DNA of 38,820 nucleotides from assembly GCA_945861025.1 (NCBI GenBank), contig CAMASN010000028.1, positions 1 to 38,820 on the forward strand, given 5' to 3'. The stretch is from Ferrithrix thermotolerans DSM 19514. GTDB taxonomy: Bacteria; Actinomycetota; Acidimicrobiia; Acidimicrobiales; Ilumatobacteraceae. Under the pieces are notes generated by a model. It searched no databases. It was not told where the DNA came from and saw nothing but the letters and a program-made list of their open reading frames with translations. The translations under genes were made by a program, and so were the position numbers. This document shows positions 28,589-30,248 of the stretch, piece by piece. Positions within the stretch are counted from its first letter, which is position 1; the number at the start of each line of letters is the position of its first letter.

Positions 28589-29650
<1,062 letters not shown>

Positions 29651-29725
29651 CCCCAGCCGCCGCCCGCCTTGGTCCCGCGCCCTGCCGTGCCCACCCCCCA
29701 ACGTCCCGCGCCCTCGCCCCGCCCG

Positions 29726-29786
29726 GTTTGTTGAAGACAATTGGTCAACCCCCAACCTGTTGTCTTCAACAAACGTTTTGTTGAAG
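29726..29786. repeat. Inverted repeat element with third half-copy after asd
   Basis: Perfect 15-bp arms GTTTGTTGAAGACAA (29726-29740) and its complement (29760-29774), 19-base loop, plus a third partial copy TTTGTTGAAG at 29777-29786. Its A/T content is much higher than the flanking pyrimidine-rich tract. It could be the asd terminator (TTTT just after the right arm) or a small dispersed palindromic repeat. Confidence 0.75.
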
Positions 29787-29790
29787 GAAA

Positions 29791-29811
29791 GTGGTGAGTG
29801 GTGAGTGGTGG
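29791..29811. repeat. Heptamer tandem repeat
   Basis: Three copies of GTGGTGA (the last GTGGTGG) head to tail between the inverted repeat and mazG. Strongly purine-rich on the plus strand, opposite to the pyrimidine-rich stretch at 29652-29725. No gene here. Confidence 0.6.
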
Positions 29812-29832: not shown

Positions 29833-30114
29833 TCAGCGGCAGGCGCAGGGCATTGCGGCGCACCGAGGGCATCCGGCTGCGTAGCGCTGCACGGCAAGCG
29901 CGAGGTCGATGTTCATCTGGTTCGCCAGTGATGCCACCCAGGCCAGGACGTCGCCGAACTCGTGTTGCTGCTGCTCGACGGTGCCTTTGCGCACGGCTTG
30001 GGCTAACTCGCCAAGTTCTTCACAAAGCCACGCAACAGTGCTGGGGATACCGCGGGCTCGGTCTCGATCGCCGTAGGTGCGTTCGATCACATCTTGAAGG
30101 TGAGCCAGATCCAT
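29833..30114 (-). CDS. MazG-like nucleotide pyrophosphohydrolase
   Basis: 93 residues, a single MazG domain. The helix-bundle acidic motif is WLCEELGELAQAVRKG followed by EFGDVLAWVASLANQ, where the Glu and Asp residues bind Mg2+. The family hydrolyses noncanonical or excess nucleoside triphosphates. It ends in a Cys-rich tail CPRCAAMPCAC, which could bind a metal and is seen in small MazG homologues. TAAGTT six bases before the ATG indicates a leaderless transcript. Short but complete. Confidence 0.83.
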   Translation of the reverse strand: MDLAHLQDVIERTYGDRDRARGIPSTVAWLCEELGELAQAVRKGTVEQQQHEFGDVLAWVASLANQMNIDLALAVQRYAAGCPRCAAMPCACR

Positions 30115-30171: not shown

Positions 30172-30248
30172 TGGTCGGGGTGGGGAGATTTGAACTCCCG
30201 GCCTCCACGTCCCGAACGTGGCGCGCTACCAAGCTGCGCTACACCCCG
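30172..30248 (-). tRNA. tRNA-Pro (anticodon CGG)
   Basis: On the minus strand a full cloverleaf: acceptor CGGGGTG paired with CACCCCG, D arm with AGCTTGGTA, anticodon stem CCACG/CGTGG around loop TTCGGGA (anticodon CGG, codon CCG), T arm GGGAG-TTCAAAT-CTCCC, discriminator A73 and an encoded CCA end. C1-G72 is typical of bacterial tRNA-Pro. Confidence 0.96.

Follow-up and report, generated by a model that had tools for sequence, protein, structure and literature searches.

DNA uptake sequence dyads consist of a short motif arranged in inverted pairs where convergent genes end, and they number many hundreds. In REPIN/RAYT systems (REPtrons), short palindromes with lineage-specific arms are dispersed through extragenic DNA, and the gene of the cognate enzyme is flanked by the same palindromes (PMC3116915, PMC3733652). 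AbiEi, the antitoxin of AbiE type IV toxin-antitoxin systems, binds inverted repeats (PMC7319586).

The window analyzed here, a stretch of 38,820 nt from Ferrithrix thermotolerans DSM 19514 (CAMASN010000028.1, positions 1 to 38,820), contains a palindrome downstream of asd. Its family resembles REPIN/RAYT in that 26 extragenic palindromes are dispersed in the genome, the arms are lineage-specific, and an enzyme gene is flanked by them. It differs in the enzyme, which is an AbiEi-like protein with a DUF559/Vsr-like nuclease domain instead of a Y1 HUH transposase, in the missing GTAG/CGTC tag, in a stem of about 22 bp closed by a loop of 3 nt, and in its occurrence in Actinomycetota. Because it has neither the Y1 transposase nor the tag, the family is not assigned to REPIN/RAYT. 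Like DNA uptake dyads, the family places a short motif in inverted pairs where convergent genes meet; it differs from them in having 26 dyads, few single motifs, and a cognate gene of its own.

The palindrome downstream of asd

The palindrome (29727..29773, no strand) lies between the gene named asd in the preliminary description (28631..29650, + strand) and a small convergent gene, which we take to be MazG-like (29833..30114, − strand, stop at 29833). It has the form TTTGTTGAAGAC-N4-GGT-N9-ACC-N4-GTCTTCAACAAA (family 1), and its 47 nt form a stem of 22 bp with a loop of 3 nt; the inverted-repeat arms 29726-29745 and 29755-29774 are 90% complementary. The folding energy of the segment 29720-29800 was −26.9 kcal/mol (z −3.3), a value equalled by none of 200 shuffled sequences. 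The preliminary description was right in seeing an inverted repeat here, but the 15 bp given for it fall short of the 47-nt unit.

On the left, the palindrome is preceded by a C-rich flank (29651..29724, no strand; G-rich when read outward on the − strand) that contains an imperfect direct repeat of 24 nt (29660-29683/29691-29714). On the right, a third half-copy, TTTGTTGAAG, stands beside the palindrome on the + strand (29777..29786), followed by a G-rich flank with three AGTGGTG heptamers in tandem (29790..29810, no strand). The C-rich tract (about 29651-29724), the extra half-copy outside the hairpin, and the heptamer repeats had all been pointed out before and are present at these positions. 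A tRNA gene (30175-30248, − strand) is located close to the MazG-like gene, and a tRNA was the sole match in an Rfam search of the window.

Twenty-six copies in one genome

The genome (2.89 Mb in 104 contigs, 95.6% complete) yielded 70 matches to TTTGTTGAAGACAA with up to two mismatches, versus seven for the reversed control pattern, which is more than chance would give. A two-arm pattern matched at 27 places versus two for its control. One of the 27 (C30:28775, three mismatches) was dropped as not being a palindromic copy; the consensus of the remaining 26 near-identical copies is that given above for the window palindrome. Spacing is built into the two-arm pattern and left free in a search with the arm motif alone, which revealed no dyad in this genome at a spacing other than 33 nt. 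The third half-copy (up to three mismatches) adjoins the palindrome in 21 of the 26 copies and is a trait of the family.

According to a crude purpose-made codon-based gene caller, 15 of the 26 copies lie between convergent genes, nine between tandem genes, and one between divergent genes, and one overlaps a gene end. The convergent share exceeds that of background junctions (56 of 347 in 400 kb; Fisher 5.6e-6). Twenty-four copies are solo, and the remaining two bracket a gene for a 319-aa protein. The extra half-copy had originally been taken to suggest a dispersed palindromic repeat or a remnant of a small mobile element, with a count of copies and contexts in the genome proposed as the check. 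Such an origin is supported by the 26 copies in convergent, tandem, and divergent contexts, most simply explained as insertions relative to close relatives, and by the nuclease-like gene flanked by the same palindromes; a motif confined to the asd locus, which would have spoken against it, was not found.

Occupied and empty sites in related genomes

Two of the eight other genomes of the genus examined, G006 and G008, contain the window family, which was also seen in assemblies labeled LacPavin (identical to G006) and ZH-Jul18 (very probably G008). At least one of these two sister species has a copy at the same place for 24 of the 26 copies; for the other two, both on contig C24, no matching flanks were present among the sister sequences compared. 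All 18 loci that could be traced into G006 via a flanking gene and were uncut by a contig end were occupied, i.e. carried the palindrome within three mismatches. Excluded from this set were locus W15, because of a contig end, and a hit of 81% on C253, which was taken as a paralogue.

The relatives G001 and G007 are without the window family. For 20 copies, both neighboring genes could be anchored on a single locus of G001 or G007, and at 11 of these 20 loci G001, G007, or both have a gap of at most 30 bp; for five of these 11 loci, the gap in the other relative is larger (41-112 bp). The gap between asd and the MazG-like gene is 182 bp in the window, 0 bp in G007, and 3 bp in G001, and the C-rich left flank is part of the DNA missing there. 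Because 11 of 20 gaps in the nearest family-lacking relatives do not exceed 30 bp, the element was most simply inserted, and the simplest reading of the sequence comparison is that insertion predates the separation of the three sister species. Transposition was not seen, 24 of the 26 copies having a sister counterpart and the two on C24 not being comparable. For three of 24 G006 copies no counterpart was identified here; in two of these cases the corresponding position lies beyond the contig end in the own genome. Since no recent transposition was apparent among the 24 comparable copies of 26, the burst of copies may be old and finished.

With the two-arm pattern, 15 of 61 relatives gave matches, and the 12 genomes other than G000, G006, and G008 had one to eight each; those listed for these 12 carried two or three mismatches, were not palindromic by eye, occurred about as often as controls, and were rejected. 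A covariance model (R1) applied to 298 genomes of the order, with the best 20 candidates scored per genome, retrieved the family itself and three hits at two places in one other genome, a result that says little about palindromes with other arms.

The bracketed gene codes for an AbiEi-like protein with a nuclease-like domain

The copies at C48:9351 and C48:10371 bracket the gene of the 319-aa protein at a distance of 1020 bp (1018 bp in G001). The N-terminal 160 residues match AbiEi profiles: the orthologue from G006 was recognized by the PADLOC AbiEi model (E 1.3e-20, residues 9-166). The protein itself scored 21.2 bits with Pfam DUF559 (cut-off 20.6) and 20.7 with Pfam AbiEi_4, below the cut-off of 25. 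In NCBIfam, it had no match; of three proteins compared with this collection, two were without a match and the third gave a weak one. The unit differs from AbiE systems in the fused nuclease domain, in the absence of an adjoining AbiEii toxin (two neighbors translated in G001 and judged by eye), and in palindromes that stand on both sides and are dispersed. The neighboring genes presumably encode a solute-binding-like protein and a GroEL-like protein.

A profile of ten sequences matched with its C-terminal part PDB entries 3hrl (6e-8) and 3r3p (8e-7), the latter a "mobile intron protein" that we take to be I-Bth0305I, and weakly Vsr (0.03-0.07). D238, E249, and H256 are invariant across the ten sequences. 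The domain resembles Vsr-fold homing endonucleases, but no intron or intein was seen at the gene, which is bracketed by gene-specific palindromes instead. An AlphaFold model was poor (mean pLDDT 46.8) and too weak for a fold search. As judged by dN/dS values of 0.052 (own gene versus G006), 0.066 (own gene versus G008), and 0.049 (G006 versus G008), the nuclease gene is under purifying selection.

The orthologue in G001 is 69-70% identical and is bracketed at the corresponding sites by the palindrome family of G001; the same unit therefore carries different arms in different lineages. The outer neighbors of the unit are 176 bp apart in G007, and the gene is absent there. This gap (L225) holds a palindrome that is identical at 41 of 49 positions to the one beside a DUF559 gene of G007 (L345), as if the site had attracted different families.

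Other palindrome families

The G001 family has different arms (TTTGYCYGAGSGAAAG), the same length of 47 nt, and a similar center; of 15 copies read, 11 lie between tandem, three between divergent, and one between convergent genes. The genome containing the window has at least three genes of the AbiEi-DUF559 type. One of them, on C15 (L378), comes with its own family (TAAAGCGTCAGCGCACG), of which the copies L378:1417 and L378:2471 bracket the DUF559 gene and three further ones in the sequence of this genome examined are solo (L156:5620, L156:6803, and L164:13501); the two in L156 bracket an unrelated gene. For the gene on C12 (L343), no solo copy was recognized in the sequence of this genome examined. 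Three solo copies in that sequence belong to a fourth family (GCATGGGCGCGAT), whose gene was found in G006 (L347). Palindromes of a dispersed family with GCATGGGCGCGATKTGGGAC are present in the own genome at L077:1844, L156:13880, and L168:5273 with C-rich or G-rich flanks in the style of the window family, and its gene-bearing unit was found only in G006 (L347).

In a selection of 22 sequences from five families, changes on both sides were seen at 15 of the 22 stem pairs, with the reservation that most sequences belonging to neither the window family nor the G001 family had been found by a skeleton pattern that fixes the center. This skeleton (TTTG-N13-GTCGA-N3-TCGAC-N13-CAAA) matched in 22 of 200 genomes of the bacterial family: several times each in G000, G001, G006, G007, and G008, twice in G070, and three times in G072 (two palindromes). 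The remaining 15 genomes had one hit each, not palindromic by eye.

Palindrome-bracketed units in Actinomycetota

Homologues of the protein were detected in 109 of 296 Actinomycetota genomes (full-length profile, E 1e-12 or better), the counts per genome being lower bounds as at most about seven candidates were scored in each. In the eight genomes first examined, a uniform test found a matching palindrome pair at 12 of 16 loci, in a sample for which genomes had been chosen for having palindromes and which included two trios of orthologues; L335 is also paired and was missed because the gene call ran past its stop.

A wider set comprised 70 loci in 34 genomes. Thirty of these were single loci from 30 genomes; the other 40, for the most part additional hits in these genomes, were picked before their flanks were seen. 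It includes the discovery case (L348), and the underlying profile was built from proteins of genomes already seen to have palindromes. A pair was counted as matching from 62% full-length identity upward, a cut-off of our own choice (the 99% point of control genes was 0.59). Matching palindromes of about 47 nt flanked 39 of the 70 loci, in 27 of the 34 genomes; the other 31 DUF559 loci had no matching pair by this test. Of 329 control genes, taken from three genomes in the genus of the window, two had such a pair; one of these was itself a DUF559 gene, and the other was flanked by two solo copies of a different family of the own genome. Cross-locus (shuffled) pairings gave five of 700 and far windows six of 133, controls that partly answer the restriction of the control genes to one genus. 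An earlier test with a different statistic on the first 30 loci had given 14 of 30 versus three of 433.

The pairs span a median of 1032 bp (IQR 1002-1085, range 932-1312), 21 in direct and 18 in inverted orientation. Arm similarity tracked protein similarity (Mantel r 0.33, reached in none of 2000 permutations, 47 units): in this comparison, the arms diverge fast yet follow the protein, and they are mostly gene-specific. Among plasmid records, NZ_LR134454.1 alone was matched, with a DUF559 gene and matching palindromes on both sides; phage records gave no match.

Proposed origin of the solo copies

In the reading that we prefer and consider probable, the window feature is a gene-less copy from a REPIN/RAYT-like palindrome family whose gene-bearing form encodes an AbiEi-like protein with a DUF559/Vsr-like nuclease domain. 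This form is a compact unit of approximately 1.03 kb in which the AbiEi-like winged-helix/DUF559-Vsr-like (homing-endonuclease-like) gene stands between two palindromes. The AbiEi-like part most likely binds the palindrome arms, an assignment made because AbiEi proteins bind inverted repeats (PMC7319586). The nuclease domain would then probably nick or cut at or near the arms; through cutting and repair, short copies of the palindrome would reach small gaps between genes, and local tandem duplications would be scars left by repair. The sequences themselves show the dispersed family, its lack between the corresponding genes of close relatives, the cognate palindromes around the gene in many actinobacterial genomes, constraint on both gene and arms, and arms that vary by lineage at one site; binding, cutting, and copy movement by this protein are inferred, and the system is probably mobile.

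The nearly frozen arms at solo sites, which are unexpected for idle selfish DNA, count against this reading, and so do the 31 DUF559 loci without a matching pair, the palindrome in the G007 gap, and the weak or missing Pfam AbiEi_4 and NCBIfam matches. Solo copies may be kept intact through use by the host or through active maintenance by the protein. More tentatively, with the chances somewhat against it, the units could form a widespread, undescribed class of palindrome-bracketed mobile elements in Actinomycetota, in which the AbiEi-nuclease recognizes, spreads, and actively maintains its own 47-nt palindromes. Protein and arms would then be in rapid co-evolution, and either the protein or a host function that it has acquired would keep solo copies intact throughout the genome.

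Constraint on the palindromes and a possible role as host sites

In 36 comparisons of orthologous copies, covering 21 own loci, no change was seen at the 216 sites of the inner GGT/ACC, whereas 22 of 288 sites in the N4 segments and 38 of 324 in the center had changed; third codon positions of nearby genes differed at 15%. The outer arms differed from those in G006 at one of 324 sites (18 loci with 18 positions each, hand tally); this set is relied on here since a value of 0/864 is biased, its loci having been fetched by an exact-arm pattern. In orthologous copies such as L088:4001 and L143:7286 the loop reads CCC in one and GGG in the other with the arms unchanged, as if the center had been inverted.

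When tandem copies were read on the transcribed strand, the window family (orthologues included) had 18 G-T pairs versus 29 A-C mismatches, and the G001 family had 15 versus ten. There is no consistent excess of G-T pairs and therefore no consistent signal of RNA pairing; a pure RNA-hairpin role was demoted on these counts, and the pattern of substitutions looks more like constraint by DNA recognition than by RNA pairing.

Near-invariant arms and GGT/ACC across species would also be expected of binding sites for a host protein, in a regulon or in chromosome organization, whose only link to an AbiEi-DUF559 gene would be that this gene is autoregulated through the same operator, and AbiEi proteins are described to bind inverted repeats in their own promoters (PMC7319586). 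Autoregulation requires a site upstream of the gene only, however, and the palindromes match on both sides of the gene at more than half of the 70 loci; moreover, many copies lie where the gaps of relatives measure 0-30 bp. We therefore regard host sites as a rather unlikely explanation, though one to be taken seriously.

Flanks of the copies and a possible role in termination

Short tandem repeats were present in 28 of the 52 flanks, i.e. beside 20 of the 26 copies, versus 21 of 349 stretches after stop codons, eight of 78 intergenic centers, and 48 of 1000 random stretches. In the 60 nt next to the stem, read inward, 46% of the bases are C and 19% are G. A surplus of C over G was seen on 49 of 52 sides, versus 60 of 93 in the control, and this skew fades by about 120-140 nt. 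Around copies of the G001 family it is weaker (23 of 30 sides). The flanks of orthologous copies vary, with a mean identity of 0.80 (66 comparisons, 50 nt) versus a shuffled baseline of 0.61.

A C-rich, G-poor RNA made from both convergent genes and followed by a hairpin is what a bidirectional, possibly Rho-dependent terminator would produce, and the inward strand has this composition, the Rho-type resemblance being one of composition only. The skew was present on all 39 sides that are transcribed into, versus eight of 11 start-codon sides (25 of the 26 copies, the one overlapping a gene end being left out), the convergent context of 15 of the 26 copies fits as well, and so does the surplus of G-T pairs in G001 tandem copies. 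On the other hand, no terminator-like site was found, and a hairpin with a T-run occurred on four of 52 sides, at variance with the plain terminator that the preliminary description had allowed for as a contrary outcome. Nor do G-T pairs outnumber A-C mismatches in the window family when its tandem copies are counted; in the G001 family, most copies are tandem and a single one is convergent; and termination leaves both the identical arms at 26 loci and the bracketing of a nuclease gene unexplained. As the primary function, termination is unlikely; an effect on convergent neighbors is possible as a secondary side effect of insertion.

Ordinary transposable elements as an improbable source

A 47-nt palindrome looks like two joined terminal inverted repeats, and the copies could be the ends of an ordinary insertion sequence, in the manner of MITEs, in which DUF559 travels as a passenger; all dyads found by the arm motif in the genome are spaced at 33 nt, however, with no widely spaced arm pair seen besides the copies themselves, and for most DUF559 genes the arms are individual, which makes such an origin highly improbable. 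Classical REP/REPIN sequences mobilized by a RAYT (HUH Y1) transposase have in their favor the REPtron layout of dispersed extragenic palindromes plus a flanked cognate gene (PMC3733652, PMC3116915), but can practically be dismissed, since a search for Y1_Tnp (PF01797) that was positive in six of 14 control genomes gave no match in this one, GTAG/CGTC or its complement was found within 8 nt of the palindrome foot in none of the 26 copies, and RAYT is refuted for this genome unless encoded in the part missing from the assembly.

Implications

Together, the palindrome family and its AbiEi-nuclease gene suggest a REP-like system that is undescribed and probably mobile. In a search of open-access full text, no paper linking DUF559 with palindromes was found. 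The palindromes offer a testable partner for a common uncharacterized protein family, and the preferred reading would mean that REP-like pairs of palindrome and enzyme arose independently on a non-HUH nuclease. The spread and persistence of palindromic repeats would then be testable in a second, unrelated system.

Two of the DUF559 units deviate from the simple layout. The unit L336 (G463) has extra inverted-repeat arms outside its left palindrome (1244-1363), hinting at tandem palindromes, and L341 (G001, contig C59) may be a hybrid unit, as the two strong palindromes that bracket its gene differ in their arms.
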